Positions 3,491 through 37,656 of a stretch of 39,876 bases of DNA are shown here, piece after piece. The translations under genes were made by a program, and so were the position numbers. Each line of letters opens with the position of its first letter. Position 1 is the stretch's first letter. The notes below the pieces were generated by a model, which searched no databases, was not told the origin of the DNA, and was given only the letters and a program-made list of their open reading frames with translations. The DNA comes from a virus, in the IMG/VR virus record IMGVR_UViG_3300035183_000595, positions 1-39,876 of that record; one strand, given 5' to 3'.

Positions 3491-6400
3491 CTATAGTCCA
3501 CCCGGCATCTGGTGCAAACCCCAGCGCAGCGCCTTCAACGTGTCGGCGTACACGTCGCAGGCGTCGGCCCACTGGTCGCAGGTGAAGCCGCCGCCGGCGA
3601 CCGTGCAGGTGCCGCAGCTGGCCTCGGAGTGCGGCCACGGCGCGCTGTCGTCGTTGCGGTCCGGCGCGACCGTCAGCTTGCAGCCGCTCGCCGCGCATGG
3701 CCCGCCGTTCACCGCGCCGGCCCACGCCTTGTAGCAACTCTGTTTGGCGGCCGTGCAGGCCGGGTCCGAGTCGCACGCGCCGTAGCCGGCCGCGCTGCAG
3801 TCCGTGTCCCAATCGCACGGCTTGCGGCAGACGCCGGCGGTCGGCGTATCGCTGCCGGTGCCGTTGTCGCAGACCATGCCCAGCGGCCAGCAGTCGGAGT
3901 CCGTGGTGCACGCCGGCCCGGCGACGCTGCACTTGCCCACGCAGCCCTCCGCGAGCACCGGGTTCATGGCGTTGCTCATCGCCACCTGCATCGTGTCCGC
4001 GCAGGCGGGCGAGATGCCCAGCTCGTTGTAGCGGTCCTGCAGGTAGTTGCTGATCGGCACGATGAACTCGCGCAGCGGGCAGTTGCAGACCTCCCAGGCG
4101 TACTCGCCGTCCTTCGGCGGCGGCAGCGAGCCCGGGAAGCCCAGGTCCCCGATGCCGGTGTACTTGCCGGGTTGGGAGGAGTGGCCGAACAGGTGCACGT
4201 CGCACAGCGGCACGCAGGTGCCGCCGCCAGGGCAGCCGCCCTCGGCCTCGGTCTTATAGAAGCCGTCGCCGCTGGCCACCGGGCAGCCGGCGTGCGTGTC
4301 GCCAGGCAGCGGCGAGACGTACTTGAACGGGTCGGTGTCGCGCGAACACGGACAGGAGTTCTCGGTGACCGAGCACCGCTGCGCGCCGTCGTTGCTGCAC
4401 ACGCCGCAGGCGCTCTGCGGCAGGCCGCGACTGTTGGAGCCGGCGCGCTTGAACACCGCGTCCCAGTCCATCAGCGTGCAGTCCGGGTTCACCTCGCTCG
4501 GGTTCGACGCCTTGTCCTTGCGGCAGTGGGCCAGGCGCTCCCCCAGGTCCTGCGTGCAGTTGGCGGCGCCGCCGATCTCGCCACAGCGCGCCATGTTCGG
4601 CACGCCGACCCACGACGACGACGCGGCGTTGCCGAGATACCCGGGGCCGATGATCATTCGCGAGCACTGTCCCAGCCCGTACGGAGACGGGCAGCCTGGC
4701 GAGCCGCCGATGAGGCTGGTGAACCACCCGGCCTGGTTGCGCGTGGCGCGGATCAGGCCATCGGCCAGGTAGTTGCTCGCCTTGCTGTTCTGCTTGAACA
4801 GCCCGTTGCCCCACATGCCGGTGCCGGCGCAACTCTGCGAGATGCGGGGCGGCGCGATGCCAAGCGTCGCCGTCGCAGTCGGCGACGCGCCGGTGGTGTT
4901 GGTGCGCGTGGCCGTGCGCGTCGGCGTCAGCGTCTTGGTAAACGTCGGCACGCCTGGCGGCAATGTGTCGGTCGGCGTCGCCATGGCCGTCGCGGTCGGC
5001 GTGGCCGTGCGGGGGTCCAGCGTCGGCGTGCGCGTGCGGGTCGCCGTCGCCGGCGGCGGCCACGGCACGAACGGGCCGGTGCCGTCGCCGCCGCGCGGGA
5101 TGTACGGGGCGCGGCACAGCTGCCGCAGGCGCGGCCACCCTTGCTCTAGCTCCGGCTCCGCGTCTATCGCGCGGTTCTCGATGCACGCGGCGAACGCCAC
5201 CGCCTGGTCCACGCCATGCTCGTGAGCCGTCTCTAGGTCCAAAAAGCCCAGCGTGCGGCTGGCGGCCAGCTCGTCGTCCAAGAAGGCGTACGCCCAGCCG
5301 CGCATCGTGGCCAACGGCACCGCCAGCGGATCGTCCACCGCCGGCATGCGGCCGACCACCAGCACCGGCCAGGCATGCCGGTCGCGCACCGTCTGCACCA
5401 GCTGCCGCACCGTCTCCATCGTGCGCCCCAGCTCGTGGCGCTGCTGGCACGTGCCGCTGCTGCAGTTGGTCACCTGCACGTTGTCCATCTCGTCGTTGCC
5501 GAACAGCCACGCCTGACACGCGCTGCCGTCGCCAGGGTCGTCCGCGCAGGCCGTGCCGCCCGGGATGCAGGGCGTGCGGTACTGCGCGCCCCACGCGCAC
5601 TTCGCATGCATCCCTGGCGTGCGCCAGGTGTGCACGTAGTCGCCGTCCACGCGGCAGCCGACCGGCGGGTCCTGGCCCCAGCACTTGCCATCCGCCGGCG
5701 CGCTCCAGCTGTGCAGCAGGTCCTGGTACGCGAGCGAGATCACGTCGATGGCCACCAGGTCGCCCGCCGCGTTCGCGCCGCGCACCAGCGTGCCGGTGTC
5801 TCCGCAGAAGCTGATGCTGGTGTTGGCCTGCTGCTGCTGCAGCGCCTCCAGGCTGGTCTGCCCGTCCTTGGTCTGGTCGCACAGCGATCCCACGTCCGGC
5901 ATGCGGAACATCAGGCCCGGCAGCACGTCGTCGGAGAACGCCGTGGCGCCGACCAGCCACACGCCGCACAGCTGGTCGTCTCCCAGCACGTCGGGGCATG
6001 CATGATGGTTCTCGCCGAACGTCGGCGTCGCAGTGGCGGACGGCTCAGGCGTGTCGGTCGGCGTTGGCGTGACCGTGAAGGTGCGCGTGGCGGTGGCCGT
6101 GGCGGTGTCCGTCGCCGTTGCCGTGTTCGTTGCCGTGTTGGTCGGGGTGTCCAGCGGCGTGTTGGTGTTGGTCGGCGTCGGCGTCGGCAGACAGCCGCGC
6201 ACGATCAGCCGCATCTCGTTGGCGGTGCCCGCTGGCGGCGTCGGCGTCACGCTGCCCTCGGCCTCGAAGAACATCACTGCAGAGTCGCTGGCGCTCGGGT
6301 CGCCGCCGTCCGCGCCGATCTTGAACGCGATCCACTGCTGCGTCGGATCGATATAGGTCGCCGGCGTGAGCAGGTTGAAGCGCCACGGGTTGGAGGCGTA

Positions 6401-7597
6401 CACGCTCGTCGCGTCAATGGAGAACGCCGTCGCCGGCGAGATAGTGTCTTCGTGGTCGCCGGTGGACCACGAGCCGGCATAGGTGGTGACGTACTTGCCG
6501 ACGAAGTGGCGCGTGGAGCCGCCGGTCACTGCCGTGCGGAAGTTGTAGCCCTCCAGCCAGGCGTTGGTCACCGTCAGCGTGTTCGGCAGCGTCGTGATGT
6601 CGAAGGCCACCAGCAGGTCGTTCTCGATGTTGACGCCGAAGTTCCACTTGCCCGCAATGAGCTGATAGCTGGTGGTGTCGAGCGAGGCCGCGCCGTTGTT
6701 AGCGGACTGCGTGTAGCCGTCGTCGCCCACCGCGCTCACCGGGAACGTGTAGTCGCTGCAGAGTCCGCCCGCCGGGATCGTGGGGCTGGCCGTCTGCGTC
6801 GGCAGCGGCGTCGCGGTGTTGGTCGGCGTCGGCGTCGGCGTGGCCGTGTTGGTCGGCGTCGGCGTGTTCGTCGGGGTGTACGTCGTGCCGATCAGGTCGC
6901 TCTGTGTGAACTCGATCCAGCTGGCCTTGGTCGTGTCCGAGTCGCCGGTCAGGCTGAGGTCCGTGGCGCTGGTGCCGCCGCGAAAGAGCGAGGCGCTGCG
7001 CGACACGCCATCGTTGCTGTTGGACTGGTAGCCGATCTCCGCCACCAGGTAGTCGCCGGCCTGCGCGCTGGCGCAGGTGGTCACCGCGACGGTGCCGTTG
7101 CTCAGCACGGCGGCCGTGGCGCCGGCATTGCCGCCCCACTCGTTGTCGGTGTTGACGGTGCCGTTGGTGGCGTTGGCGACCAGCGTGCAGCGCACCAGCG
7201 AGGGGCTGCTTCCCTGCGCCACCCAGATATGCAGCGCGGTGATCGCGTTCTGCGCGTGGCCGCTCTCGGCCGTCATCAGCGCGAAGGTGAGCGTGCCCGA
7301 GATGGAGCCGGTGCCGCGCAGCGGCTGCGACGACACGAAGCGCGTCACCAGGTAGGTGGCCGTCTCGTTGGTGGCCTCGGAGGTCGTGGAGGAGGTCGCC
7401 GTGCCGCTCTTGCTGGTGCCCATGGCGGCCGTGGAGGTGCTGCCGACCGGCGGCGTCGCGGTGGTCGTACTCCAGCCGCCTTGCGGCGTCGGGTTGAACG
7501 GCGCCGCCGCGTTCTGCAGGTACAGCCGCGTCGCGGCCTGCGCCGGCCGCGCGGCGGTGAGCGCCAGGCAGACGGCAACGATCAGGCGCCGCCGCAT
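3491..7597 (-). CDS. Large secreted modular protein with Cys-rich C-terminus
   Basis: A 1368-residue protein beginning with a Sec signal peptide (MRRRLIVAVCLALTAARPAQA, predicted cleavage after AQA near 22). GGTGGAGG five bases before the ATG at 7597 fixes the start; the frame stays open to 8245 but that part overlaps another gene. Beta-rich domains are separated by three Thr/Pro linkers. Domain A spans about 24-236 and resembles beta domains of phage virion proteins. Domain B is about 273-466. Domain C, about 523-846, contains LFGNDEMDN, faintly like the GxND block of SGNH hydrolases. Domain D, about 913-1368, is Cys-rich with TDSDC/DTDC motifs. Function unknown; adhesin, receptor-binding or envelope-modifying roles are possible. 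A signal peptide in a tail operon is unusual. Confidence 0.8.
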   Translation of the reverse strand: MRRRLIVAVCLALTAARPAQAATRLYLQNAAAPFNPTPQGGWSTTTATPPVGSTSTAAMGTSKSGTATSSTTSEATNETATYLVTRFVSSQPLRGTGSISGTLTFALMTAESGHAQNAITALHIWVAQGSSPSLVRCTLVANATNGTVNTDNEWGGNAGATAAVLSNGTVAVTTCASAQAGDYLVAEIGYQSNSNDGVSRSASLFRGGTSATDLSLTGDSDTTKASWIEFTQSDLIGTTYTPTNTPTPTNTATPTPTPTNTATPLPTQTASPTIPAGGLCSDYTFPVSAVGDDGYTQSANNGAASLDTTSYQLIAGKWNFGVNIENDLLVAFDITTLPNTLTVTNAWLEGYNFRTAVTGGSTRHFVGKYVTTYAGSWSTGDHEDTISPATAFSIDATSVYASNPWRFNLLTPATYIDPTQQWIAFKIGADGGDPSASDSAVMFFEAEGSVTPTPPAGTANEMRLIVRGCLPTPTPTNTNTPLDTPTNTATNTATATDTATATATRTFTVTPTPTDTPEPSATATPTFGENHHACPDVLGDDQLCGVWLVGATAFSDDVLPGLMFRMPDVGSLCDQTKDGQTSLEALQQQQANTSISFCGDTGTLVRGANAAGDLVAIDVISLAYQDLLHSWSAPADGKCWGQDPPVGCRVDGDYVHTWRTPGMHAKCAWGAQYRTPCIPGGTACADDPGDGSACQAWLFGNDEMDNVQVTNCSSGTCQQRHELGRTMETVRQLVQTVRDRHAWPVLVVGRMPAVDDPLAVPLATMRGWAYAFLDDELAASRTLGFLDLETAHEHGVDQAVAFAACIENRAIDAEPELEQGWPRLRQLCRAPYIPRGGDGTGPFVPWPPPATATRTRTPTLDPRTATPTATAMATPTDTLPPGVPTFTKTLTPTRTATRTNTTGASPTATATLGIAPPRISQSCAGTGMWGNGLFKQNSKASNYLADGLIRATRNQAGWFTSLIGGSPGCPSPYGLGQCSRMIIGPGYLGNAASSSWVGVPNMARCGEIGGAANCTQDLGERLAHCRKDKASNPSEVNPDCTLMDWDAVFKRAGSNSRGLPQSACGVCSNDGAQRCSVTENSCPCSRDTDPFKYVSPLPGDTHAGCPVASGDGFYKTEAEGGCPGGGTCVPLCDVHLFGHSSQPGKYTGIGDLGFPGSLPPPKDGEYAWEVCNCPLREFIVPISNYLQDRYNELGISPACADTMQVAMSNAMNPVLAEGCVGKCSVAGPACTTDSDCWPLGMVCDNGTGSDTPTAGVCRKPCDWDTDCSAAGYGACDSDPACTAAKQSCYKAWAGAVNGGPCAASGCKLTVAPDRNDDSAPWPHSEASCGTCTVAGGGFTCDQWADACDVYADTLKALRWGLHQMPGGL
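4860..5060 (-). repeat. Thr/Pro linker 3 of the large secreted protein
   Basis: Low-complexity DNA made of GTCGGCGT-like units on the plus strand encodes about 65 residues rich in Thr, Pro and Ala (units such as TPTATA, RTRTPT). It joins the middle domain to the Cys-rich domain. Such linkers are usually extended and often glycosylated in cell-surface proteins. Confidence 0.75.
6018..6192 (-). repeat. Thr/Pro linker 2 of the large secreted protein
   Basis: Repetitive GTC/GTG/GCC-rich sequence encoding TNT/TAT/TPT units (for example NTATNTATATDTATATAT) over about 58 residues. It separates beta domain B from the central domain C. Confidence 0.75.
6775..6890 (-). repeat. Thr/Pro linker 1 of the large secreted protein
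   Basis: Short-period repeat encoding TPTNTPTPTNTATPTPTPTN-type sequence, about 36 residues, between N-terminal domain A and domain B. It has the same composition as the linker at 8398-8692 in the neighbouring gene, so the two genes share a building block. Confidence 0.75.
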
Positions 7598-9603
7598 ACA
7601 ACCTCCACCAGCAGGTCGGCCGCGCCGAAGCAGGCGTCCGGGACCGTGTTGGTGGACAGCGCCCACCAGCCCTGGTCGTCGTGCGCGTTCCATGCCTGCG
7701 TGTCCATCGGCGTCACGGCGCTGCCGGCCGGCCCGTCGAGCGTGCCGAGCGCAAGCCCTTCGACGTTGTTCACCAGCGCGCCCACCGAGACCCTGCAGCC
7801 GGCCGGCAGCGTGGTCGCCGTGGCGCCGTTGTACGCCGACACCACGGTGCCGATGGCCCAGCAGCCCATGAACTGCGGCACCTGCGCGTCGTCCGCGCTG
7901 GCCGCCGCCACGCCGTCCGTGCGGAAGTATTGCGGCGTGCCATTCAGTAGCACGCCGCTCAGGAGCACCGTGCGCTGTCCCCACGGCCGCATCTCGCGGC
8001 CGTTGCGGCGCGGCCCGGACGGCCCCTCGAAGTCGATGGTGGCCTGCATGTACGAGTCCAGCACCGTGGTGACGCCTTCCCAGCTGGCCACCACCGCCGC
8101 GTTCCAGTCGGGGATAAAGTTCGGGTTCCACTCCAGGTGCAGCGTGCGCAGCGCCTGGTCCAGCCAGAGCCGCAAGGTGCTGTTGATCTGCATGGTGTCC
8201 GGCCGCGGGTTGCCGGCGACCATCAGCCCGAGCGCGTCCTTCCACTGGCGGATGATGTCGGGGATGCCGAAGCAGCGGAACGCCTTGGGCAGGCTCGGCT
8301 GATCCGCGATGCAGCCCATGATGCCGGCCGTCTCCGGCATGGTCCAGAAGCCCTGCACGGTGGTGCGGCCGTCGCCATCGGTCACCGCCCAGTCCTCCGG
8401 CGGCAGCGTCGCCGTGAAGGTGGCCGTCGCCGTATAGGTGGGCGTCCGCGTCGGCGTCTCGGTCGGCGTGCGCGTGAGCGTCGGCGTGCGCGTGTTGGTG
8501 CGCGTGGACGTGACGGTCGGCGTGTTGGTGATGGTGGGCGTGTTGGTGATCGTCGGCGTGTTGGTGTTCGTGCCGGTCGAGGTCGGCGTGCCGGTCTGCG
8601 TGGGCGTGCTCGTCGGCGTGAAGCTAAAGATGGGCGTGTTGGTCACCGTCGCGGTCGGCGTGTCGGTGCTGGTGGGCGGCGGGCCAGGATACGGCGCCAC
8701 GCCGAACACTATGCTGGCCGAGCCGGACGCGGGCGTGGTGACGCAGAAGCCGCTGGTGGCCGAGCAGACGCTGCTGCCCGAGGTATAGAACGCGCCGCCG
8801 CTGTTCCAGTTGAGATAGTTGGCGATGCCGAGCGCGCCGTCCTCACCGCAGTTGGTGCTGATGGATACCACGCCGGTCAGGTTGGCATCGCTGCCATGGA
8901 GCGCGCCGTTGAACTTCCAGTTGGAGTAGTCCGTGCTCGCGTTGCCGCCAGGCGAGGTGCGCGCGCCGTTGGCGCTGCCGCTGCAGTTGAGGCCGATGTT
9001 AGGGTCGCTGCCGTCGTCGTCGCTGTTGCCGATGATCGCCACGAGCAGCGAGTTGGCCAGCGTGTCGGCCCCGTAGTCGCCGAGGGAGTTGGTGAGGTCG
9101 CGCGTGGCCGGCGAGGCGCCGGAGCCGCCGAAGATCAGCCCCTGGATCGGGTTCGACGGGTTGAAGGTGTTGGCCGCCGCGACCGTGACCACGGTGCAGA
9201 CGGCATGGTTGGTGATGCCGCTGACCGTGCAGGACTCGCAGTAGTTGTCGCCGTCGCCGCCGGGGATGTCGGCCAGCACGGCCTTCTTCCACCAGGCCCA
9301 CACCTTCGCGCTCGGCGCGTTGGTCTTGATGGCCGGCGAGGTGAGCGCGGGCGCGCCGTACGACACCGGCGTCCAGCTGCCATCGGCCACCAGCGCGGCG
9401 TCGCGCGACTGGCAGGCCATGACCATCAGGTCTCCGACCTGCGTGCCTGGCGCCACGTCCATGCCGCCGTTGGCGTCGCTGCAGCTGGAGCGGTTGGTGC
9501 GGCAGGCCGTGCCGGCGACGCCGACCCACGTAGGCGGCGTGAGCGCCAGCGCCTGGCTTGCCGCAGCAGCCAGGCACAGCAGTGCGAGCGCGAAGTGACG
9601 CAT
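7582..9603 (-). CDS. Secreted modular protein with Thr/Pro linker
   Basis: A 673-residue protein with a clear Sec signal peptide (MRHFALALLCLAAAASQALA, cleavage near 20-21). The start at 9603 is preceded by AAAGGAGG at 9 bases. The mature N-terminal domain, about 22-303, is beta-rich with paired Cys residues and PGTQVGDLMVMAC, a pattern seen in secreted repeat domains. A Thr/Pro linker covers about 304-400. The C-terminal domain, about 401-673, contains helical and beta parts (RLWLDQALRTLHLEWN) and conserved-looking Trp residues. It overlaps the following secreted-protein gene by 16 bases. No enzyme motif is seen. It follows the fibre gene, so a role at the virion tip or on the infected-cell surface is inferred. 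Confidence 0.8.
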   Translation of the reverse strand: MRHFALALLCLAAAASQALALTPPTWVGVAGTACRTNRSSCSDANGGMDVAPGTQVGDLMVMACQSRDAALVADGSWTPVSYGAPALTSPAIKTNAPSAKVWAWWKKAVLADIPGGDGDNYCESCTVSGITNHAVCTVVTVAAANTFNPSNPIQGLIFGGSGASPATRDLTNSLGDYGADTLANSLLVAIIGNSDDDGSDPNIGLNCSGSANGARTSPGGNASTDYSNWKFNGALHGSDANLTGVVSISTNCGEDGALGIANYLNWNSGGAFYTSGSSVCSATSGFCVTTPASGSASIVFGVAPYPGPPPTSTDTPTATVTNTPIFSFTPTSTPTQTGTPTSTGTNTNTPTITNTPTITNTPTVTSTRTNTRTPTLTRTPTETPTRTPTYTATATFTATLPPEDWAVTDGDGRTTVQGFWTMPETAGIMGCIADQPSLPKAFRCFGIPDIIRQWKDALGLMVAGNPRPDTMQINSTLRLWLDQALRTLHLEWNPNFIPDWNAAVVASWEGVTTVLDSYMQATIDFEGPSGPRRNGREMRPWGQRTVLLSGVLLNGTPQYFRTDGVAAASADDAQVPQFMGCWAIGTVVSAYNGATATTLPAGCRVSVGALVNNVEGLALGTLDGPAGSAVTPMDTQAWNAHDDQGWWALSTNTVPDACFGAADLLVEVVCGGA
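8398..8692 (-). repeat. Thr/Pro linker with near-identical 18-base units
   Basis: About 97 codons of Thr/Pro/Asn/Ser. Near 8515-8570 (plus strand) the unit GTCGGCGTGTTGGTGAT recurs three times with small changes, encoding TNTPTI/TNTPTV. Tandem slippage or recombination is the likely source, so the length may vary between related phages. Confidence 0.8.
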
Positions 9604-12114: not shown

Positions 12115-15100
12115 CTACACCGTCAGCCGCGCGCCGCGAAAGCGGACATCCAACACCGCGTCCAGCGCCGCGCCGTTCTCAACGTCGTACACGCGGAACA
12201 GCGCGCCCAGGCGGTCCTTGGCCACCAGGCTCCAGGCCGCCGGCCGCGTGCTGTCCTGCACCGCCACGATCTCCGCCGTGCGCAGCGTGGAGAAGCGGCG
12301 CGCCGGCTGCACCAGCGCCAGGCCGGTCACGCGCCGGTACGCCACGCGCACGATGGTCTGCGTCAGCTCCGGCGCCTGGCTGCCGCTGCTCACTTCCATG
12401 TACGTCCGCAGGCGCACGCTGCGCGTGCGCACGTCGTCGCCGGTGGCCAGGCCGGCCAACGCCTGCACCTGGCCGCTGTTCACCAGCGTCTGCCAGGTCG
12501 CGCCGTCGTCGACGCTGGCTTGCGTCACCACCGTGCCGTCGTTGACCGTGGCCGTGTAGCTGGCGTAGGCGCGCAGGAACGACGGGATGAGCGCCAGCGG
12601 CACCGCTGGCGCCTCGCGGTAGCCGGCGACGACGAAGGATCGCGGGCCGCTGATAGCGGCGTTGATGCGCCCCTCGCTGGCGTCGAACAGCGCCGCCGCG
12701 TTGTTCACGTGGTTGCATGGGTAGTACGCCGCCAGGCGCGGGTCGCGGCGGTGCGAGGTCGTGTCGTAGTCGCGCAGCAGCTCGTCGCGGCCCCGGTGCC
12801 CCGCCCATACCGCCACTTCTTGCAGCCAGCCCTTGAACCGTTGGCTGCCGGCGTGGTCGGCGCCGACGCGCAGCGGATAGACGGTGGCGGGCGGCACCGG
12901 GAACGGCGACTGGTCACTGTTCAGCACCACGCGCTCCACACCGTTCAGCACGCCGCGCAGCAGGCCGCCGTCCAGCTGGTAGTCGATAGCGTAGACGGTG
13001 AACAGGTCCGGCACCGTGATGCGCGTCCCGGGCCACTCCGCGCCGTTCACGTAGAGGAAGAACTGCTTGGCGCTGGCGTCGAAGCAGAGGCGATAGGCAG
13101 CGCCTTTGCCGACGAGCACGCCGGTGCCGGTCATGGCGCTGTCCGGCCGGCACACCGCGCCCAGGCCCCAGCCGCTGAACGGCAGGTTGTGGCGCGCGCT
13201 GGCCACCGCCGCCGTCGCGTAGCTGCCCGCCGCGCCGTCCAGCAGGTACGCCGCGTGCGGCACCAGCGTCAGCGTGGTGAGGCCCGACGACTCGCGCGGC
13301 TCCACGCCGTACTGCCATGCGCTGCTACCAAACGCCGCCGCGTCGCGCTCGATGCGGTCCAGCAGCCCGGTCGGCAGCCGCATGCGGAAGTCCTCGACAA
13401 ACTCGCTGTCGTCGTTCTCGAACACGCGCACCAGGAAGCCCTCGGCGGTCGGCGCGCGCGGGTTGGACAGGTCCTCGTTGTAGACCACCAGGCGCCACTG
13501 CACCCAGCGGCCGAAGCCGCCGAGCGTGATCCCCCACGGTTCCCACTCCGGCTGGTCCGCGCGCTTCACGCGCGACTGCACGACGTACCGCTGCCCGTCG
13601 CGCATCCGCACCTGCCAGGTCCAGCGCAGGTAGCGGTTCCCTGGCCCCATGTCCTGCTCCGGCGTGGTGTACGCCACGGCAGGGCCGGCGGCGTTCCAGG
13701 CCAGGAAGGTGTCCCAGGTGTCCGTCTCGTCCCAGGTGAGGTCCGCGATGCCTTCCAGCTCGCCCCGGTCGTTCACCACGCCGTCGCGGATCGCGCCGTT
13801 GTGATCGGTCGGCCAGCCGTCCTCGGCGTAGTCGGTCTGCCACAGCAGGGACGGCATGGTGGCGGCCGAGAGCGAGACCTGCACCGAGCCGACGCCGTTG
13901 CTGTAGAACCCTTGCCGGTCGATGCTGCGCACGAAGAACGTGTAGTCGCCAGGCGCCACCGGCTGCGCCGTCTCGAAGCTGCGGTCCCGCGCGAAGGCGT
14001 TGCCGATGACGCGCGCGCCGCTCCAGTTCTCCAGCGTGCCGGCCTTGGCGCCGCGCGCCACCCGCAGCTCGAAGCCGGCCAGGTCCGGCGGCGCCGACGC
14101 GCCGGCCAGCGCCCACGTCAGCAGCCGCTGGCCATCGGACAGCTGGCGCACGCGCACGTCTACCGGGTCCGGCGGCGGCACCGTCTCGTACGTCACGCGC
14201 ACGGTCTTGGTGACGAAGGCGCTGGTGCGCTGCTGCAGCACGGTGGCGACGGCCACCTGGTAGGCGCCTACCTCCAGGCCGATGATCTCGTAGCGCGTGC
14301 CTGGCCACCGGACCACCGTCGTCTGCCACTGCAGGTCGCCGGCCAGGTTGCGCCAGCGCACGTCGAAGCCGTCCGCGAAGCCGTCGTCCGGCGGCGTCCA
14401 TTGCACCACCACCTTGGCGACGCGCGTGCCGTCCGGGTTCACGTGCGTCTGCTCCTGCACCGTCACGCCGCTCGGCGGCTGCAGCAGGAACGGATCGCCC
14501 AGGCCGGTGCGCGGCGGGTACTTGGACGGGTCGATCTCGTCCGCGTAGATCTGGTCGCTGTACTCCCACAGCTCCAGGTCTACGCCCCAGTCGCTCTGCA
14601 ACGTGCGGTCCATGACGCGGAACAGCTTGCCGCCGGCGACCACGTGGTAGGTCGGCCCTTCGTCGGTGCAGCTCTCGGCCACCTGCACCGCGTCGTCGCT
14701 CACCGCCACGACGGTCTTGATGCCGTTGTTCCCGGCCACGCTGCAGCCGCGCACCGGCCACTGCTGGCCAACCACCACGCCCGCGCCGATGTCGGTGCCG
14801 GCGTACGTCTTGGTCGCGGCGTCCACGGTGGCCGTGCCGATGAAGCCGAAGCCGAGGTACGGGTGGCAGACGTAGACGACCGACCACGGCACGATCTGCA
14901 TGAGGCGCGGCATGCCAGGCCACACCAGGCGCTGCGACAGCCGCGCCTGCTGCAGCGTGATCTGGGCCAGGCGCCGCGCGCGATCTACCTTGCACGTCCA
15001 CGGCAGCTCGATGTCCACGCTGAATTCCGTGTTGCCGTCCTCCGCGAGAAACTGCGGATGCGACACCGGCGCGAAGTCGTCCGGGAGGAAATTGTTGCGC

Positions 15101-16290
15101 TCGTTGATGAACGTGCCGCGCACGGTGTTCACGCGGTCCTTGCGGCCTGGCTGCGGCGACACCTGCAGCGCGGCCCCGGCGCGCAGGTCGTCCGGCGTCA
15201 GCGTCACGGCCGTGGCCGGACTGCTGCCGATGTCCACCGCCACCGGCTCCGTGGTGCCGGCCTTGATGTGCCAGAGGCCGCCGTAGAACAGCGTCGCGCC
15301 GGCCATCGCGGTGTTCAGCTTGGCCATGGTGTCGATGGGCACCTGGTCGGTCTCGAACACGCCGTCGCACTCGTAGCGGCGGATCTGCGGCATCGGCTCG
15401 CTCGGGTCGTCCGGGTCCTCCTTCTCGGACGGCGCGTCGATCATCTCGTCGCAGACGTTGGCGCTGGCGATGCAGCAGTCCTCGCAGATGCCGTCCTGCG
15501 GCACGCCGAGCCCGAAGCGCCGGTCGGTCAGGTAGCGCCGCATCGCCAGCGCCGGGTTCGTGTCGTAGCCCCAGGTGTCCTCGATCTCGGCCTCCTGGTG
15601 GCCGCCGGCATCGGTGCTCTTGCGCGGGTCGAACACCAGGTTGCCCTTGATCGTGGCGCGCACGTTGGGCGCGCCGCCCGGAAACACCTTCACGTCGAAC
15701 CGCAGCAGGCCCCACAGTCCGGCGATGCGGCGCAGCGGCCGGTACTGCTTCAACCACTCGCCCGGCAGCGCGCACTCCACGCCGTCCAGCTGCAGCGGCC
15801 CCCGGATCATCGGCTGATCGCGGAAGCCCATGAACGGGACGAACACCGCCAGGTCGGCGTACTTCACGCTGCTGGCCGCGTCGTCGTTCAACTGGATGTC
15901 GTAGATGTCCTCCACCGGGCCATGCATCATCAGCAGGCAGAAGTGCAGATACGGCCCGCCTTCCACCTGGATGCCGTCGCGGTTGACGCTGCGTGCGTAC
16001 GCGAGCACGCCGCTGATGCGGCAGCGGCCGAAGCCGACGCGCCACGGCGAGACGTTGTCCTTGACGATGCCGCGCAGGTTGTCGATGCGCGTGCTCGGCT
16101 TCAACTGGTCCGGCGGCTGGTACAGCGCGGCCTGGATGCCGTAGGTGAGGCCCGACACCACGACGCTGCTGACCACGCTGCCGATGATGGCGGCCGTGAG
16201 GCCGTAGGTGGTGGCGCTGCCGATGGCGAACGGGTCCTCGGTGTGCTGCAGCACGAAGGACGGCGGCGTGAACGGGCGGCGCTCGTGCAT
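12115..16290 (-). CDS. Tail-tip / host-specificity protein (lambda J-like)
   Basis: A 1391-residue tip protein by size, position and architecture. The N-terminal third has features of the J family: an early hydrophobic stretch (TAAIIGSVVSSVVVSGLTYG, about 31-50) and a DNLRGIVKDN segment near 70-79. Residues about 492-550 are a module also present in the tail tube. Residues about 603-807 look like two fibronectin type III domains (VVVQWTPPDDGFADGFDVRW). Residues about 1033-1192 form a LamG/concanavalin-like domain (FFLYVNGAEW, GWLQEVAVWAG, AAYYPCN). The product should close the tail tip and contact the receptor or a surface glycan. It starts three bases after the sulfotransferase gene. Confidence 0.87.
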   Translation of the reverse strand: MHERRPFTPPSFVLQHTEDPFAIGSATTYGLTAAIIGSVVSSVVVSGLTYGIQAALYQPPDQLKPSTRIDNLRGIVKDNVSPWRVGFGRCRISGVLAYARSVNRDGIQVEGGPYLHFCLLMMHGPVEDIYDIQLNDDAASSVKYADLAVFVPFMGFRDQPMIRGPLQLDGVECALPGEWLKQYRPLRRIAGLWGLLRFDVKVFPGGAPNVRATIKGNLVFDPRKSTDAGGHQEAEIEDTWGYDTNPALAMRRYLTDRRFGLGVPQDGICEDCCIASANVCDEMIDAPSEKEDPDDPSEPMPQIRRYECDGVFETDQVPIDTMAKLNTAMAGATLFYGGLWHIKAGTTEPVAVDIGSSPATAVTLTPDDLRAGAALQVSPQPGRKDRVNTVRGTFINERNNFLPDDFAPVSHPQFLAEDGNTEFSVDIELPWTCKVDRARRLAQITLQQARLSQRLVWPGMPRLMQIVPWSVVYVCHPYLGFGFIGTATVDAATKTYAGTDIGAGVVVGQQWPVRGCSVAGNNGIKTVVAVSDDAVQVAESCTDEGPTYHVVAGGKLFRVMDRTLQSDWGVDLELWEYSDQIYADEIDPSKYPPRTGLGDPFLLQPPSGVTVQEQTHVNPDGTRVAKVVVQWTPPDDGFADGFDVRWRNLAGDLQWQTTVVRWPGTRYEIIGLEVGAYQVAVATVLQQRTSAFVTKTVRVTYETVPPPDPVDVRVRQLSDGQRLLTWALAGASAPPDLAGFELRVARGAKAGTLENWSGARVIGNAFARDRSFETAQPVAPGDYTFFVRSIDRQGFYSNGVGSVQVSLSAATMPSLLWQTDYAEDGWPTDHNGAIRDGVVNDRGELEGIADLTWDETDTWDTFLAWNAAGPAVAYTTPEQDMGPGNRYLRWTWQVRMRDGQRYVVQSRVKRADQPEWEPWGITLGGFGRWVQWRLVVYNEDLSNPRAPTAEGFLVRVFENDDSEFVEDFRMRLPTGLLDRIERDAAAFGSSAWQYGVEPRESSGLTTLTLVPHAAYLLDGAAGSYATAAVASARHNLPFSGWGLGAVCRPDSAMTGTGVLVGKGAAYRLCFDASAKQFFLYVNGAEWPGTRITVPDLFTVYAIDYQLDGGLLRGVLNGVERVVLNSDQSPFPVPPATVYPLRVGADHAGSQRFKGWLQEVAVWAGHRGRDELLRDYDTTSHRRDPRLAAYYPCNHVNNAAALFDASEGRINAAISGPRSFVVAGYREAPAVPLALIPSFLRAYASYTATVNDGTVVTQASVDDGATWQTLVNSGQVQALAGLATGDDVRTRSVRLRTYMEVSSGSQAPELTQTIVRVAYRRVTGLALVQPARRFSTLRTAEIVAVQDSTRPAAWSLVAKDRLGALFRVYDVENGAALDAVLDVRFRGARLTV

Positions 16291-16293
16291 GGC

Positions 16294-16962
16294 TCAGTCC
16301 TCGTACCCGCACAACCACATCGCGCGGCCGTGGTCGCGCGCGATCTCGGCCGCCACCGCCGGCTCCAGTGCCGTGCGCCACTGGCCGGCGCGGCCGTCGC
16401 GGAAGAACGGCGCATGCGGCGACGCCTCGGCAAAGCCGTCGCGCGCCTCGGCCTCGCGGCAGCGGTCAAAGGCGCACTCGCGCACCACGTGCTCGGCGTG
16501 CTGCGCCGGCAGGCCGCACACGCCGGCCACCTGGCGCAGCGCCGCCACCGGGTCCGCGCGCAGCCGCTCGAAGGCGAGCACCAGGCCGCACACGCGCGCG
16601 TCCAGCCAGCCCTGCACGTGCGCGGACCAGCTGCCGAGGTAGGTGCCATCGCCTAGCACGGCGCCGCGCAGCAGCTCCGCCGCGCGCGCCTGCGTGCAGC
16701 CGTAGAAGGCCGCCATGGACAGCGCCACGTCGCGCGGGTCGCGCACCAGGTAGACCACGTCGGCGCCGGCAACGCGGTGCACGGCCGGCCGGTACTGCGC
16801 GTGCGTCTTCACCACGCGCGCCGTGGCGGCGGCCGGCGCGTGGTCGATGGGGATCGCCTGCAGCAGCTGCAGCGACCACGGCACGTCCGGCTGCAGCAGC
16901 CGCGCCAGCATGAGGCGCAGCCAGGTGTTCCCGGACTTGGGATAGGACGCGAGCCAGGTCAT
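16294..16962 (-). CDS. PAPS-dependent sulfotransferase
   Basis: A 222-residue sulfotransferase-fold protein, which would move a sulfuryl group from PAPS to a hydroxyl or amine. The 5'-phosphosulfate loop is SYPKSGNTW (residues 6-14, with K9 as the expected catalytic/binding Lys), followed by VVKTH (50-54). The 3'-phosphate site is YLVRDPRDVALS (71-82, with R74, S82). It is shorter than animal enzymes but within the bacterial range. The ATG at 16962 overlaps the stop of the NlpC/P60-like gene. Its place between K-like and J-like tail genes is where lambda has gene I. The substrate is unknown: host surface glycan, lipid or a virion protein are all possible. Confidence 0.87.
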   Translation of the reverse strand: MTWLASYPKSGNTWLRLMLARLLQPDVPWSLQLLQAIPIDHAPAAATARVVKTHAQYRPAVHRVAGADVVYLVRDPRDVALSMAAFYGCTQARAAELLRGAVLGDGTYLGSWSAHVQGWLDARVCGLVLAFERLRADPVAALRQVAGVCGLPAQHAEHVVRECAFDRCREAEARDGFAEASPHAPFFRDGRAGQWRTALEPAVAAEIARDHGRAMWLCGYED

Positions 16963-17411
16963 CGCCCGACCGCATACGCTACCGCGCCCGCGCGCGCGAT
17001 GGTCCTGATGGTCCAGCGCGCCAGCCCTTGCTTGGTGACCACGTACACCGAGCCGTCCACCTGCAGGCCGAGCACGCCGACCGCCCCGGCATGCTCGTTG
17101 GGGCGCGTGCCTGGCGCGAACAGAAAGATGTCGCCGCGCTGCGCCGTCAGCGCGTTGGCCAGCGGGCGGCAGCCGAACTCGGCCAGCGCGTCGGCCAGCG
17201 TGGTCCAGCCACGAAAGAGGCAGTAGCCTTGCGCGCCGTACTCGTCGTCGTACATGCCCGCCATCGCCTCGGCATGCGCGGTGCCGCACATGGCGTCGGC
17301 GGCGCGCAGCGGCCACACGGCGCAGTCGTGCGTGCCCCAGGCGAACGGCAGGTGGATGGTCTGCGCGTAGAAGCGCGCCAGGCGCTGCGGCCAGTCGGTC
17401 AGGCGCTTCAT
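16959..17411 (-). CDS. Tail-associated NlpC/P60-like protein (K-like)
   Basis: A 150-residue protein of the phage NlpC/P60-like class (DUF6950-type). Likely catalytic Cys is C30 in FAWGTHDCAVWPLRAADAM. Later GDIFLF (93-98) and HAGAVGV (107-113, H107) match the second half of the papain-like site. In lambda the K protein with this fold sits in the tail tip and is thought to trim peptidoglycan at DNA entry. The ATG overlaps the upstream stop (ATGA), and the in-frame ATG at 17549 is rejected because it lies inside the previous gene. Confidence 0.8.
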   Translation of the reverse strand: MKRLTDWPQRLARFYAQTIHLPFAWGTHDCAVWPLRAADAMCGTAHAEAMAGMYDDEYGAQGYCLFRGWTTLADALAEFGCRPLANALTAQRGDIFLFAPGTRPNEHAGAVGVLGLQVDGSVYVVTKQGLARWTIRTIARAGAVAYAVGR

Positions 17412-19468
17412 GTCGTCGTGCTCCCTTCGGGGTCGCTGTTCTCGTCGCGCGTGCGCGCCGGCCACCACTCCGTGGAGTCCACCATGGCGGCCAGGAACGC
17501 CAGGCCGAAGTCGTCCGGGTACTCGGCGCGGTGCGCCTGGTCGTTCCATCGCTGCGTGCCTGGCTGGCTCCAGCGCCGCAGGTGCGACTCGGCGGTCATC
17601 TCTATCGCCGCCACGTCGTCCTGCACGGCGATGTTCATGGTGTCCATCTGGCCTTCAAAGGCCAGCACCGGGTTCTGCACCAGCACGCCGTTCGGGTCGA
17701 ACAGCACCTGCCAGATGCGGCACGGCCGGTCCAGGTAGTCCGCGCGCAAGGCCAGCGCCACGAACTGCGGCTTGAGCGCCGGCAGCGAGAGCCGCGCGCC
17801 GGTCGGCACCAGGTCAGCCGGCTCCTGGATCACGTCGATGGTGCCGACATCGCCCAGGCCGGCGAAGGTGCTGCCGTTGTACGGCGCGGCCAGCGGGAAC
17901 TCCACCGTGTGCGGCGCGTTGCTCAGGTTCAGCACGTCGCCAGGCACGTCCAGGTGCAGCGGCGTTCCCTCGCGCCCGGGCGAGTACTCGGCCACGTCCT
18001 GGTCCACGTAGCCGGTCGGGAACCCGAACCAGTACGTGCGGCCGGCCGCGTCCCAGCCGCCCTGCAGCACGCCGCCGCTCCCTTCCTGCGTCAGCTGCAG
18101 GTCCAGGCCATGGCCGCTGATGTCGTGCGCCACGGTGCCGCTCGTCTCGTTCAGCGGGTACAGCGCGCGCAGCCCTTCGTTCGCCACCATGTCCGCGATC
18201 TCCACCGCGTTGGTGACCCGCCGCCGGCCGCGCTTGCAGATGGCGCCTGCGGTGAGCGCGTGGCCGGCGTAGATGCGGCACTCCGACAGCAGACCCTGGA
18301 AGCTGGTGGCGTTGGTGCTGGCGCTGGCGACCGGATGGCGGCCGAGCGTGAAGCGACCGTCCGTGGGGATGACGATGCCGATGGGCACGTAGATGCGCCG
18401 CTCCTTGTCGCCCACCTGCCGGATCTCGGTGGCCCTCTGATAGCGGCTGCGGACGGCGCGGTACGCCACCAGCTGCAGGTTGAGGAACAGCTTGAGCGAG
18501 AAGCCGTCGTAGGTGAGGCACACGTGCCACCAGCGGTTCATCTTCACCGCGCCCACGGCCGTGGCCAGGCCGGTCTGCGCGATGGCGAAGTTCTGCTCGT
18601 AGCCGAAGTTCTCGAACACCTGCACGCGCAGCGTGGCGTCGTCGCCGGCGGCCTCCAGGAACAGCAGCAGGCCGCCGCGCTCCTTGCCGTTGGCCGCCAC
18701 CGTGCTCCAGCCGCCAACGTAGCCGCTGTTCCGCTCCGGCCGCATCAGCAGCTCCCAGCTCATCGCCGCCTTGCCGTAGCGCGCCGGGTTGTCGGCCTGG
18801 CTCTCGTTCGCCGGCTTGCCGGCGGCCGGCTTGCCGCCGAAGCGCCACTCGACATCGCCGTGCGACACGTGCAGGTCCTGTGGCACGCCGTCCGCGTCGT
18901 GCCAGGCCGGCGCCACGTTGCGCACCGCACCGGCGCGCGCGCCGTTCAGCCGCAAGTACACCTCGCCCAGCGCGCGCAGGCCGCCGGCCTGGCGCCCCAC
19001 GCTCACCAGGCGGCCGTCTAGCAGCGACGGGTCGCTGGTCAGCGTCTCGGTGCGCGTGATCACGTCGCCGCTCTCCAGCGCAGCCGTCACCGTCAGGCTG
19101 TCGATGATCGCGCCGTTGCCGCCGTTCACGTACACCAGGCGCACGCGCACGTTGCGGTTGGTGACCACCGAGCCGACCGGCCATGGCACCTGTCCGTTCG
19201 GCGTGCCGTCCGACATCGGGATCGGGTCGCCACTGCGATAGACCCGCTGCCAGGTGGCGCCGTCGTCGATGCTGGACAGCACCCACACCTGCGACAGGTC
19301 GCCGCGCCCGGTCCACGAGATGCTGCTGTCCGGCACCGGCGGCACGCTGCCGACCTTGGCGCGCAGGCGCGTGCCGAAGATCAGCTCCACGCACGAGAAG
19401 GCAGCGTAGCCGTAGCGCGAGGAGAAGCCGGCGTGCGCCGCAGCGGTCATGTCGCTGCGCGTCGCCAT
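17408..19468 (-). CDS. Minor tail protein with LamG-like insertion (L-like)
   Basis: A 686-residue tail protein. The C-terminal quarter (LPALKPQFVALALRADYLD to AMVDSTEWWP) has the look of distal tail/L-like proteins that link the tube to the tip. The central part, about 226-465, is a LamG/concanavalin-type lectin fold: WWHVCLTYDGFSLKLFLN, then LLSECRIYAGHALTAGAI and LRALYPLNETSGTVAHDISG. Such domains bind sugars or proteins, so it may give reversible host adhesion. Its stop overlaps the K-like start by 4 bases and its start is one base downstream of the M-like gene, in lambda order. Confidence 0.78.
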   Translation of the reverse strand: MATRSDMTAAAHAGFSSRYGYAAFSCVELIFGTRLRAKVGSVPPVPDSSISWTGRGDLSQVWVLSSIDDGATWQRVYRSGDPIPMSDGTPNGQVPWPVGSVVTNRNVRVRLVYVNGGNGAIIDSLTVTAALESGDVITRTETLTSDPSLLDGRLVSVGRQAGGLRALGEVYLRLNGARAGAVRNVAPAWHDADGVPQDLHVSHGDVEWRFGGKPAAGKPANESQADNPARYGKAAMSWELLMRPERNSGYVGGWSTVAANGKERGGLLLFLEAAGDDATLRVQVFENFGYEQNFAIAQTGLATAVGAVKMNRWWHVCLTYDGFSLKLFLNLQLVAYRAVRSRYQRATEIRQVGDKERRIYVPIGIVIPTDGRFTLGRHPVASASTNATSFQGLLSECRIYAGHALTAGAICKRGRRRVTNAVEIADMVANEGLRALYPLNETSGTVAHDISGHGLDLQLTQEGSGGVLQGGWDAAGRTYWFGFPTGYVDQDVAEYSPGREGTPLHLDVPGDVLNLSNAPHTVEFPLAAPYNGSTFAGLGDVGTIDVIQEPADLVPTGARLSLPALKPQFVALALRADYLDRPCRIWQVLFDPNGVLVQNPVLAFEGQMDTMNIAVQDDVAAIEMTAESHLRRWSQPGTQRWNDQAHRAEYPDDFGLAFLAAMVDSTEWWPARTRDENSDPEGSTTT

Positions 19469-19469
19469 C

Positions 19470-20099
19470 TCAGGTCGCCTCTAGCAGCTCGGCCTGGACG
19501 GTCCACATCGGCGGGCCGTCCTCTACTTGCGTCACCACCGGCTCCTGCAGCCACATCAGCACCGGCGCGCACTTGACCAGCAGCGGCGCGCCGTGCGGCG
19601 GCGGCGTGCGGATGTACTGGTTCAGCTGCAGCGTCAACGCCGTGCCCACGCTGGTGGCGTCCGCGTGCACCTCGTACAGCTCGTTGGTGGCGGCGATGGC
19701 CACCAGGTCGCCGGCGCGGAACAGCAGCGTGTCGGCCGGCGCACCGGCGCACACCAGCTGGCGCGCGTGCTGGTCCGCACCGTTGACGGTCAGGGTGTCG
19801 TAGTCGGCGATGACGCGCGTGCCGTCGTCGATCAGCAGCGGCTGGTCGCGCGCCGGATCGAAGACGGTGAACGGCTCGTCGGCGTAGTAGTTGAGCACGG
19901 CCATGAGCAGGCCGAAGTCGCGGCGCGGCAGCTTCTGCCACTCCAGCTGCATGCGCCAGTTCCCGAAGCGCCGGAACCGCTGCTGTTGCTTGCTCCACGT
20001 GCTGGTGTGCCGCAGGGCGTTGGACACCCACTGCATCTCCATCCGCGTCGGACGGATGCCGATGATGTCGCCTAGCGTCGGGCTGCCGGTGGCGCTCAC
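19470..20099 (-). CDS. Minor tail protein (M-like)
   Basis: A 209-residue protein between tape measure and the L-like gene, the place of lambda gpM or the distal tail protein. It begins at a GTG (20099) that overlaps the tape-measure stop (GTGA); no in-frame ATG offers a better start. Residues about 21-60 (MQWVSNALRHTSTWSKQQQR onward) are basic and aromatic, then FTVFDPARDQPLLI suggests the beta part of the tube-tip junction. Assignment rests mainly on position and size. Confidence 0.7.
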   Translation of the reverse strand: MSATGSPTLGDIIGIRPTRMEMQWVSNALRHTSTWSKQQQRFRRFGNWRMQLEWQKLPRRDFGLLMAVLNYYADEPFTVFDPARDQPLLIDDGTRVIADYDTLTVNGADQHARQLVCAGAPADTLLFRAGDLVAIAATNELYEVHADATSVGTALTLQLNQYIRTPPPHGAPLLVKCAPVLMWLQEPVVTQVEDGPPMWTVQAELLEAT

Positions 20100-23000
20100 T
20101 GCATGCCCTTTCGCCGGCCCACCGCTGCGGCCAGCTTGCCGCCGCGCCCGATGCGCCGGATCAGTTCCTGTTCGATCACTGGCATGTTGTCCAGGATGGT
20201 GCGGTGCGCCTGCGCCGGCTGCAGGTCCTGCACGATGATCTGCGTCGGCAGGTGGATATGCACCGGCGCCTCGCGGCCAGTGGGGTCGTCGCGGTCCTCG
20301 TCGTCGCGGCGGCGGCGCTGGCCAGCCGGCACACTCGGCGCCACCTCCTGGCGCAGCGCGGCAGTCGGCGCCTCCACCCTGGCCGCCGCGCCGCCGTCCC
20401 AGGCCTCGCCAGGCGGCGCCAGGCGCACGCGCACGCCTCGGTCCTCGCCTAGCCACTCCTCCATCGTTGGCGTCGCGCCTGGAGGCTCGCTGGCCGTGCT
20501 GCGCAGGCGCTCCACGCTGAGCGCGAAGTTGCCGACGCCAACGCCGAGGTCGTCTACCGACCGCTGCAGGCTGGCGTCCCAGCTCCAGCTGCCGATCTGC
20601 GTGCTGCCATCGGTGCCGCTGAACGGGCCGCCGGCCTCGCTGGCCGGGATGCCGGTGCTGCCGCCGCCGGTGCCGCTGAACAGCCCGCCGGCGCCGCGCG
20701 CCACGCCGCTGATGAGGCCGCTGATGGCGGCGGCGCCGATGGTCTTGAAGAACCCCTCCCAGCTGGGCGCGCCGCTGCTGCCGCCGAACAGGCCGATGAA
20801 GATACTGGTGAACAAGGCGCCGACGCCGCTGATCATCGTCTGCCAGAGCCCCTGCACCACGCCGACCATGGACTGCCAGGCGCCCTGCACGACGCCCGCC
20901 GCCTGCGTCCACGGCGCGCTCAGCTGCTCGGCGCTCGGCACCGGCACGCCTTCCCCGCCCTGCTCGGCGCGCTGCTGCACCTGCGCCTCCGGCGTCGGCA
21001 CCGTCACGCCCGCTTCCGCCGCCGCGCGCTGCACGCCGTCCTCGGTGCGCGCGGCCAGCTTGGCCTCGCGGATGGCGCGCTTGACGCTGTTGACGATGGG
21101 GTTGATGAACAGCTCCTCCGCGAACAGCCGCACGAAGTCGTCGCGGATGCCGCGCAGCAGGTCCGTGAAGCTGGTGCGGGTGTCGTTGGCCAGGCCCACG
21201 AATGCATCGGCCGTCGCCTTGCCCACGTCCTCCACGGCGCTCTCGATGTTCCCTAGCGTCTCGTCCGCGCCGGCCTCCAGCTTGCGGTACTCCTCCAGCG
21301 TGCTCGCCACCGCCTGGCGCGTCTGCTCGGCGTTCAGGAACGGAGCGTTGGTCTTGGGGTCGATGCGCTCGCTCAGGTCCTTGATCTTGCGCAGGTCCTC
21401 GACCACCTGCTGGTACGGCGTGCGCGTGCCGTCCACGATGGCCTGCGCCGCCTGGCGATACTTGTCGGCGCCGGTGGCCGCGTCGTCGAAGGCGTCCTTC
21501 GCCTGGCGCAGGGCCGCGTTGTAGTGCTCCTGCGCCAGGTACGGCTTCAACGCCTCGATCTCTCGCAGCGTCTGCGCGTAGTCGTAGGCCGGGTCCACCG
21601 CGCGCGCCAGCTGCTCGGCCTGGCGGCGCAGCTGCTCTTCGTGCTTCGCGGCTTCCTTGGCCGCCTTCTCGGCGGCCTCCGCGCCGGCCTGCTGCTGCTC
21701 GGTCAGGCCGTGCGCGGCGCCGGCCGCACGGTTCTGCTGGCTGGTCAGCAGGTCCAGCCGGTACTGCTCCAGCGCCACGGCGTCGCTCAGGCGCTCCACG
21801 GCGTCGGTCGCCTGGCTGCTGCTGTCGGCCAGCGCCACGGTGCCGTCCACGGCCGACAGCGGCGCGGCGGTGGCCGCCGCCTGCTGCTGCGACAGCTCGC
21901 GCTGCAGCTGCGCGAGGCGCGCCTGGCTGGCCTGCACTTCGCGCGTCAGGCTGTCCTGGTCCAGCGCGTGCACCTCCAGGCGAATGTCGATCTTGCCGCT
22001 GGCGCGGTCGCGCGCCCGCTGCACCGCATCGGCCATGGCGTCGTACTTCTCGCCGGACTCCTGCGCCGCCCTGCCTGCCTCCCGCACGGCGTCGGCCACG
22101 CCGCTGCCTTCCCAGAGCGCGTTGATCTTCTCGCTGATGCCGAACGTCTCGTCGAAGAACTGAATGCCCCATACCAGCGTGTCGTACAGCTCGCGCAGCT
22201 TGCCGATGAACGCGGTGATGGCGCCGTTGGTCACGGTGTCCAAGATGGCGATGACGGTCTGCGTGCCGTTCACGAACGCCTGCCAGCCCTGCACCAGCTT
22301 GTCCGCGATCCAGCTGTCCAGCACCTGCAGGAAGGTGACGGCCTGGTCGATGTAGCCGATCCACTCGATGACCACCTTGGTGGCGTCGAGCACACCGAGG
22401 GCGAATTCGTCCACGCTGGTGCGCGCGCCTTCGCTCTCCTTGCGGTACTCGGCCAGCGCGCCGGCCGCGTCCAGGAACAGGCCGCTGACCTCCTGGTAGA
22501 CGGAGAGCACACCGTTGCTGGTGGTGATAAACGCGCCGACCTCCTCGCCTACGTCCCCGAAGGCGTTCTTCACCTGCTGCACGACGCCCGCGTAGTTCTG
22601 CGCCGCCGCGCGCGCCTGGCCGCCGAAGCGGCGCTCGATCTGGTCCAGCGCCTGCGCCAGCTTCTCGCTGCTGCTGGCGTTCTCGTCCACGATGATGCCG
22701 TAGCGACTGAGCGTGCCGAACTCGCCGGCCAACGCCTTGCCGAGCACCAGCGTGGCGCCTTGCAGGTCGCGGCCCATGCCTTCGCTCAGGTTCAGCACCG
22801 CCTCGGTCAGCTGCCCCACCTGGTCCCTGGTGGCGCCGAACGCGATCAGCTGTCCCTCGACGCCCTCGATCACCTCGTCGCCGTAGGTGGTGACGCGCTG
22901 CAGGCCGCCGGCGAGCTTGGCCAGGTCGTCGCTGTACTCCTGGGAGAACTGGCCGCTGCTGCGCAGCGTCTGGTTCAGCTTGGCGGTCGCGCGCTCCTGC

Positions 23001-23221
23001 TCCTCGCTGGCGCGGATGCTGAACGCCAGCGCGTCGGTGAACGGGCGAATGGCCGCCGTCACGAGGTCCAGCGTGGCCTTGACGCCGGCCATGACCGCGC
23101 CGAATGCGGTGGCCCGCGCTTCGCCGCGCGTGAACCCGCCGTCGAGCTTCCCGAGGTCGTCATCGACCTTCTGGAACCCTTCGGTCTCCACGCGGACGGT
23201 GAGCTTGGCAAGGTCAGGCAT
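20096..23221 (-). CDS. Tail tape measure protein
   Basis: A 1041-residue protein with long helical and coiled-coil regions and a few hydrophobic stretches (IGAAAISGLISGVARGAGGL), directly after the frameshifted chaperone genes. This is the standard place and character of the tape measure, which sets tail length and is ejected during DNA entry. The N-terminus MPDLAKLTVRVETEGFQKVDDD and the RASEEQERATAKLNQTLRSS segment are typical of lambda H-like tape measures. Family rule-of-thumb spacing would give a tail of about 150 nm (inference). No lysozyme or peptidase motif was recognised inside it. Confidence 0.92.
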   Translation of the reverse strand: MPDLAKLTVRVETEGFQKVDDDLGKLDGGFTRGEARATAFGAVMAGVKATLDLVTAAIRPFTDALAFSIRASEEQERATAKLNQTLRSSGQFSQEYSDDLAKLAGGLQRVTTYGDEVIEGVEGQLIAFGATRDQVGQLTEAVLNLSEGMGRDLQGATLVLGKALAGEFGTLSRYGIIVDENASSSEKLAQALDQIERRFGGQARAAAQNYAGVVQQVKNAFGDVGEEVGAFITTSNGVLSVYQEVSGLFLDAAGALAEYRKESEGARTSVDEFALGVLDATKVVIEWIGYIDQAVTFLQVLDSWIADKLVQGWQAFVNGTQTVIAILDTVTNGAITAFIGKLRELYDTLVWGIQFFDETFGISEKINALWEGSGVADAVREAGRAAQESGEKYDAMADAVQRARDRASGKIDIRLEVHALDQDSLTREVQASQARLAQLQRELSQQQAAATAAPLSAVDGTVALADSSSQATDAVERLSDAVALEQYRLDLLTSQQNRAAGAAHGLTEQQQAGAEAAEKAAKEAAKHEEQLRRQAEQLARAVDPAYDYAQTLREIEALKPYLAQEHYNAALRQAKDAFDDAATGADKYRQAAQAIVDGTRTPYQQVVEDLRKIKDLSERIDPKTNAPFLNAEQTRQAVASTLEEYRKLEAGADETLGNIESAVEDVGKATADAFVGLANDTRTSFTDLLRGIRDDFVRLFAEELFINPIVNSVKRAIREAKLAARTEDGVQRAAAEAGVTVPTPEAQVQQRAEQGGEGVPVPSAEQLSAPWTQAAGVVQGAWQSMVGVVQGLWQTMISGVGALFTSIFIGLFGGSSGAPSWEGFFKTIGAAAISGLISGVARGAGGLFSGTGGGSTGIPASEAGGPFSGTDGSTQIGSWSWDASLQRSVDDLGVGVGNFALSVERLRSTASEPPGATPTMEEWLGEDRGVRVRLAPPGEAWDGGAAARVEAPTAALRQEVAPSVPAGQRRRRDDEDRDDPTGREAPVHIHLPTQIIVQDLQPAQAHRTILDNMPVIEQELIRRIGRGGKLAAAVGRRKGMQ

Positions 23222-37098: not shown

Positions 37099-37656
37099 TC
37101 AGGATCGCACGCGGCCGGCGGCGAGCGCAAGGAACTCGGCGCGCAGCGGGCCGTCGTAGAAGCGGCCCCCCAGGCAGCTGCTCGTCATCAGCGCGGGCGT
37201 GCGCACGCCGCGCAGGGTCATGCACAGGTGCTCGCCGCGCGCCAGCACCGCCACGTCCGCGCTGCCAGTCGCCTCCTGCACCGCCGCCGCCACGTCGCGC
37301 ACCAGGCGCTCCTGCACCTGCAGCTTGGCCGCGCAGCGGCGCGCCAGGCGGGCGAACTTGGACAGGCCGAGGATGCGCCCGCGCGGCACGTAGCCCACCG
37401 CCATGTCGCACCAGAAGGGCAGCAGATGGTGCTCGCACAGCGACCACACGCGCATGTCGCTCACCACCACCAGCTGGTCGTCGTCGGCCGGCTGCGTGAA
37501 CGTGGTGGGCGTGCCGTGGTCGCCGTCGATGAAGTCGCGCCACCAGCGCGCCCAGCGCGCCGGCGTCTCCACCAGGCCGTCGCGGTCAGGGTTCTCGCCG
37601 ATGGCCTCCAGGAGCAAGCGGCCGGCCTGCTCCAGCTTTGCCTGGTCACACGCCAC
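37099..37656 (-). CDS. folE: GTP cyclohydrolase I
   Basis: A 185-residue FolE that opens GTP to 7,8-dihydroneopterin triphosphate, first step to folate and to preQ0. All three zinc ligands are visible: C74 and H77 in [10 protein letters not shown] and C145 in [25 protein letters not shown] and [11 protein letters not shown] are also family-typical. It overlaps the end of queE by 11 bases, so here it most likely feeds the 7-deazaguanine route rather than folate. It is somewhat shorter than the E. coli enzyme, mainly at the N-terminus. Confidence 0.93.

Follow-up and report, generated by a model that had tools for sequence, protein, structure and literature searches.

Teg12 and StaL sulfate large glycopeptide-type acceptors, and these two enzymes together with Teg14 were the solved structures nearest, in both sequence and fold, to a predicted sulfotransferase encoded in the tail operon of an IMG/VR virus record (39,876 bases, 71% G+C; this whole stretch is referred to as the window). 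Teg12, Teg14, and StaL differed from the window protein in showing 26-30% identity to it, and no glycopeptide biosynthesis genes were found beside the window gene, whose flanks were phage tail genes. The bacterial PF00685 sulfotransferases (~277 aa, from Alphaproteobacteria and others) shared the same motifs with the window protein at an identity of no more than 41%, but the window protein was shorter by ~33 residues in the segment linking the P-loop helix to KTH, and none of the 80 cellular loci had window-related tail genes adjoining the sulfotransferase. The sulfotransferases of IMG/VR phages (loci L003, L013, L061, L064, and others) belonged to the same Pfam family and were tightly packed in virion operons, but they displayed 21-34% identity to the window protein, were ~55 residues longer, and occupied head or fibre positions instead of the junction between K-like and J-like tail genes. 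The gene order K-I-J of lambda resembled the tail-tip gene order around the window sulfotransferase; lambda has I, while the module composed of DUF6950 (K-like) and J-like genes had no I gene and the sulfotransferase was an addition to it.

Phage sulfotransferases have been published as auxiliary genes whose function was called unclear (PMC10580990, PMC10829341). Sulfotransferase family proteins are also borne by Synechococcus phages and OM43-phage metagenomic genomes, those of the latter being Sulfotransfer_3 proteins, unlike the PF00685 protein of the window; for annotated phage sulfotransferases, the structures listed were weak matches. Phage sulfotransferases as such were thus already known, and the new parts were the compact form, the K-J junction, and the virion-operon pattern, for which no paper was found in the literature searched (subscription journals lay outside its scope). 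Siting in a virion operon turns a vague auxiliary annotation into a testable question, namely, whether the particle or the host surface is sulfated late.

The compact sulfotransferase and its predicted fold

The window gene (16294..16962, minus strand; 222 aa, ATG to TGA) encoded a compact PAPS-dependent sulfotransferase, matched by Pfam Sulfotransfer_1 (PF00685) at E 4.9e-22 over model positions 4-249 of 255 and with a score of 79 bits vs a cut-off of 22. The first-pass annotation had recognized a PAPS-binding sulfotransferase by the motifs SYPKSGNTW and YLVRDPRDVALS; both were present in the 222-aa product, and the strand, which that annotation had omitted, was minus.

A motif alignment was composed of the window sulfotransferase plus 141 viral and cellular homologues, in which the P-loop YPKSGNTW, K52-T-H54, R74, S82, E132, and C-terminal FFRxGxxGxW were kept. 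Four sites were located on the minus strand: (i) the 5'-phosphosulfate loop YPKSGNTWL with K9 (codons 7-15, 16918..16944; homologue alignment), whose positions 7-14 were conserved in 97-98% of the 141 homologues; (ii) KTH, containing the catalytic His54 plus Lys52 (codons 52-54, 16801..16809), and (iii) the 3'-phosphate site YLVRDPRDVALSM, containing R74 and S82 (codons 71-83, 16714..16752), each invariant in an 80-homologue alignment; and (iv) the C-terminal cofactor motif RxGxxGxW, FFRDGRAGQWRTA (codons 186-198, 16369..16407), assigned from sequence plus alignment. Residues K9, K52, H54, R74, and S82 of the window protein were all aligned, being invariant or near-invariant among homologues, while its RYED motif was altered at two positions (D133 to R and Y131 to F). 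Its 222 aa compared with median lengths of 277 and 278 for viral and cellular homologues, respectively; in the alignment with these homologues, the absent segment of ~33 residues was the one lying ahead of KTH, which we take, from the known fold, to lie on the acceptor side in relatives.

The AF2 model of the window sulfotransferase reached a pLDDT of 92.4 and a pTM of 0.89, and its fold matched Teg12 (Z 22.9 over 220 residues, rmsd 2.7), StaL (Z 21.4), and animal SULTs (Z ~19). With the profile match, the intact cofactor and catalytic motifs, and this modelled fold, the predicted identity as a PAPS sulfotransferase held up, and the product was most likely a working enzyme made late.

Tail operon and the K-like/J-like junction

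The gene order on the minus strand was terminase, portal, head genes, tail terminator, tape measure, distal tail protein, LamG tail protein, DUF6950, sulfotransferase, J-like, and fibre-like genes. From the tape measure onward, the profile assignments were as follows: tape measure protein phrog_27166 (20096..23191), distal tail protein phrog_1302 (19470..20099), tail protein phrog_2048 with a Laminin_G_3 domain (17408..19468; Pfam plus PHROG matches), K-like protein DUF6950/phrog_2134 directly upstream of the sulfotransferase (16959..17411), and J-like tail tip protein phrog_31 directly downstream of it (12115..16290; E 6.7e-50, with a C-terminal Laminin_G_3 domain). The embedding between K-like and J-like genes described in the first-pass annotation was thereby confirmed: the DUF6950 and sulfotransferase genes had the 4-base overlap ATGA in common, and the J-like ATG started 3 bases past the sulfotransferase stop, with a ribosome-site-like GAGG sitting ahead of the J-like gene within the sulfotransferase 3' end. 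Gene spacings from tape measure through J-like were -4, +1, -4, -4, and +3 bases, so the sulfotransferase was packed as tightly as the true tail genes; nor was it compositionally foreign, since its GC3 was 0.960 vs a genome mean of 0.940 (sd 0.027).

Three further observations concerned the tail proteins. A concanavalin-like Laminin_G_3 domain was found by Pfam in both the J-like tip (12115-16290, minus strand) and the 17408-19468 protein, hinting that the tail may bind sugar. The DUF6950 protein (16959-17411, minus strand), called a K-like peptidase in the first-pass annotation, had a WGxxDC cysteine that all ten homologues examined share, whereas no histidine was conserved after it, and as a peptidase it was putative and unproven. 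The region 3491-9462 (minus strand) encoded two large tail-end proteins, 1368 and 626 aa in length. Both carried long repeats rich in Thr and Pro (68% T+P over 40 residues), and the larger also had 55 cysteines and a signal-peptide-like start, unusual for tail fibres.

The junction comparison was applied to two sets: (i) eight annotated named phages (hosts: Salmonella, Providencia, Escherichia, Pseudomonas, Synechococcus, Yersinia, Roseobacter, and Acinetobacter), in all eight of which the DUF6950-related gene directly abutted the J-like gene, and (ii) 80 IMG/VR loci collected by a DUF6950-alignment search, 79 of which had a detectable J-like gene and none of these 79 an inserted gene. The 79 junctions comprised 76 that abutted or overlapped, one (L314) with a gap of 82 bases, in which no gene would fit, and two (L373 and L376) with broken J frames. 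The last two initially showed gaps of 536 and 767 bases and were rejected as occupied junctions upon all-frame reading, which placed the J-like N-terminus against DUF6950 and the break further in. The window was the only example, among these named phages and IMG/VR loci, with a gene at this junction, and the sulfotransferase was thus an extra gene, compact, divergent, and intact, inserted at a normally empty K-like/J-like junction. The first-pass annotation had placed it in the slot of lambda tail gene I, a replacement at variance with the empty junctions of both sets; moreover, no similarity to tail-assembly families was detected among PHROGs at E 0.01.

The same annotation had made its reading depend on conservation at this locus in relatives, and this was not found either: no sulfotransferase was present in 50 head-module relatives (contigs retrieved through their terminase or major head protein), though their tail tips differed. 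Under the refuting condition set by that annotation itself, a gene missing from relatives or sited elsewhere in them, its gene-I part failed. All 50 were also without DUF6950, and they therefore gave no direct test of the slot and displayed only that the tail module was mosaic. Closer relatives were sought with the J-like protein, which retrieved one distant locus, with the window DUF6950 protein as a single query, which retrieved no close-relative locus, and with 16 kb in megablast against named phages, which gave no match.

Neighbours and ancestry of other phage sulfotransferases

The window sulfotransferase matched 69 loci in viral contigs, mostly at 21-34% identity, while tblastn against 50,697 records of named phages gave no match. 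Neighbours were counted at 61 non-redundant viral loci with six virion (head/fibre) families scored, and at least one of these families lay within three ORFs of the sulfotransferase at 40 of the 61, being the immediate neighbour at 34. Within three ORFs, the P22-type coat protein was found at 21 loci, SU10-type adaptor at 15, scaffold at 11, small virion protein phrog_3758 at 10, and podophage fibre protein Gp80 at six (each out of 61), and coat plus adaptor occurred together at 11. Head and structural families likewise dominated the PHROG scan of 119 immediate neighbours. Since viral contigs are recognized by virion genes, the counts are biased in favour of such neighbours, which the subset of contigs of 30 kb or more (virion-family neighbour in 9/18) reduces and does not remove; a small control anchored on the window's FolE gene, which covered 11 of its 15 viral loci and neighbours out to three ORFs, gave queuosine-pathway, terminase, and polymerase neighbours instead.

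Virion-operon sulfotransferases were seen in unrelated uncultured phages (L003, L013, L015, L030, L046, L059, L061, L064, and others), and these recurring genes of IMG/VR phages are perhaps more interesting than the window gene. The idea that the small upstream proteins phrog_3758 and Gp80 form one fibre family found no support, with no detectable relation between them (probability 0.7%). Two tandem sulfotransferase pairs were also observed: one in the phage contig L004/L005 (7980-9625), with a 4-base overlap and lying between fibre-like genes, and one in a bacterial contig (L247, 7231-8861).

In an 80-sequence tree, viral and cellular sequences were separated by six changes vs 24.7 in shuffles (0/500 shuffles as low). 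A group of 27 viral plus two cellular rows had a support of 96 without the window gene, which was placed near this clade on a long branch (2.16); a tree holding it with the clade was not rejected (p-AU 0.71), and its membership is only possible. The sequences nearest to it by identity were cellular (41% over aligned columns). Between related phage sulfotransferases, dN/dS was 0.24-0.41, indicating that the enzymes have been kept for function in those other phages; the window gene itself had no close relative.

Possible roles of the window sulfotransferase

The explanation we favour has layers of unequal strength. The sulfotransferase would be made late through translational coupling in the tail operon, and as a cytosolic enzyme it would draw PAPS from the host and move the sulfuryl group to a hydroxyl; it would be cargo using the late transcript rather than a tail part, the weaker of these steps. 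Judged on motifs, model, and gene order, the enzyme and cargo layers are very probably right. That phage sulfotransferases have different partner genes (coat, adaptor, scaffold, and fibre) is easier to reconcile with late-expressed cargo than with an enzyme serving only the adjacent gene product. A tail- or receptor-related job, which the first-pass annotation read from the tight coupling, is possible, as phage sulfotransferases do recur in virion operons; with neighbour proteins so different, though, tight coupling alone does not reveal the substrate. The acceptor would most likely be a sugar or glycolipid of the host envelope, or a precursor in the cytosol; late in infection the dying cell's surface would be altered, and fewer new particles would be lost to already infected cells or debris. 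The variation of neighbours favours, with low confidence, such host-envelope cargo over an enzyme acting on the adjacent protein. The envelope acceptor is nonetheless the weak step, and the explanation as a whole is a tentative one, with somewhat less than an even chance of being correct. Next to the window sulfotransferase, neither a glycosyltransferase nor any other gene for surface modification was identified, and the timing of a tail operon is late for an enzyme meant to block superinfection; both points count against reading the host surface as the target. Sulfation of the virion and of small molecules are close rivals of the host-envelope cargo.

Sulfation of the phage particle itself, on a tyrosine or on a sugar of a tail or fibre protein, would tune receptor binding or stability and is possible, if rather unlikely. 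The direct coupling of the sulfotransferase to the J-like tip gene, the position of other phage sulfotransferases directly after virion proteins (phrog_3758 at 10 loci, Gp80 fibre I at six, and coat or adaptor at many), and the Thr/Pro-rich stretches of the downstream window genes all speak for it, but the neighbours vary by phage, the J-like gene included, the two small upstream families are unrelated as far as could be detected, and the literature searched gave no known case of virion sulfation in phages. A bolder version, in which unrelated phage groups would have independently placed PAPS sulfotransferases in virion operons to sulfate their own particles, is doubtful. If it were true, the targets would be tyrosines or sugars of fibre, tip, or capsid, with the window gene as the tail-tip example, and self-sulfation would be a post-translational modification of phage particles absent from the literature searched.

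An auxiliary metabolic enzyme sulfating a small host metabolite, lipid, or signalling compound is likewise unlikely. Family-wide, the substrates of sulfotransferases, including enzymes among the structure matches, comprise small phenols, steroids, and lipids, and auxiliary metabolic genes are the category to which phage sulfotransferases are usually assigned (PMC10580990, PMC10829341, PMC13079714). The shortened acceptor-side region of the window protein argues the other way, since it may alter the pocket typical of small-molecule enzymes, and metabolism alone does not explain the virion-operon position.

That the gene encodes a remnant, or an inactive domain with no role today, is improbable: the long branch, the short length relative to a median near 277 aa, and the two RYED changes would suit decay, but the ORF is full, the fold is confidently predicted, and every cofactor-contacting motif is kept at about 40% identity. 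Replacement of lambda gpI by the sulfotransferase as a tail hub assembly protein is scarcely credible, for beyond the position between K-like and J-like genes and a length similar to that of gpI, it faces a tail-module type that works without a gene at the junction, the lack of a PHROG match and hence of any tail family, and a full-length ordinary sulfotransferase fold.

Outside the tail operon, one run of window genes at 37099-39443 (minus strand) encoded FolE (GTP cyclohydrolase I), a phosphoribosyltransferase, and a radical SAM protein resembling QueE. These genes constitute a partial 7-deazaguanine pathway, possibly for DNA modification, and viral FolE homologues were seen to adjoin QueC/QueD/QueE genes.
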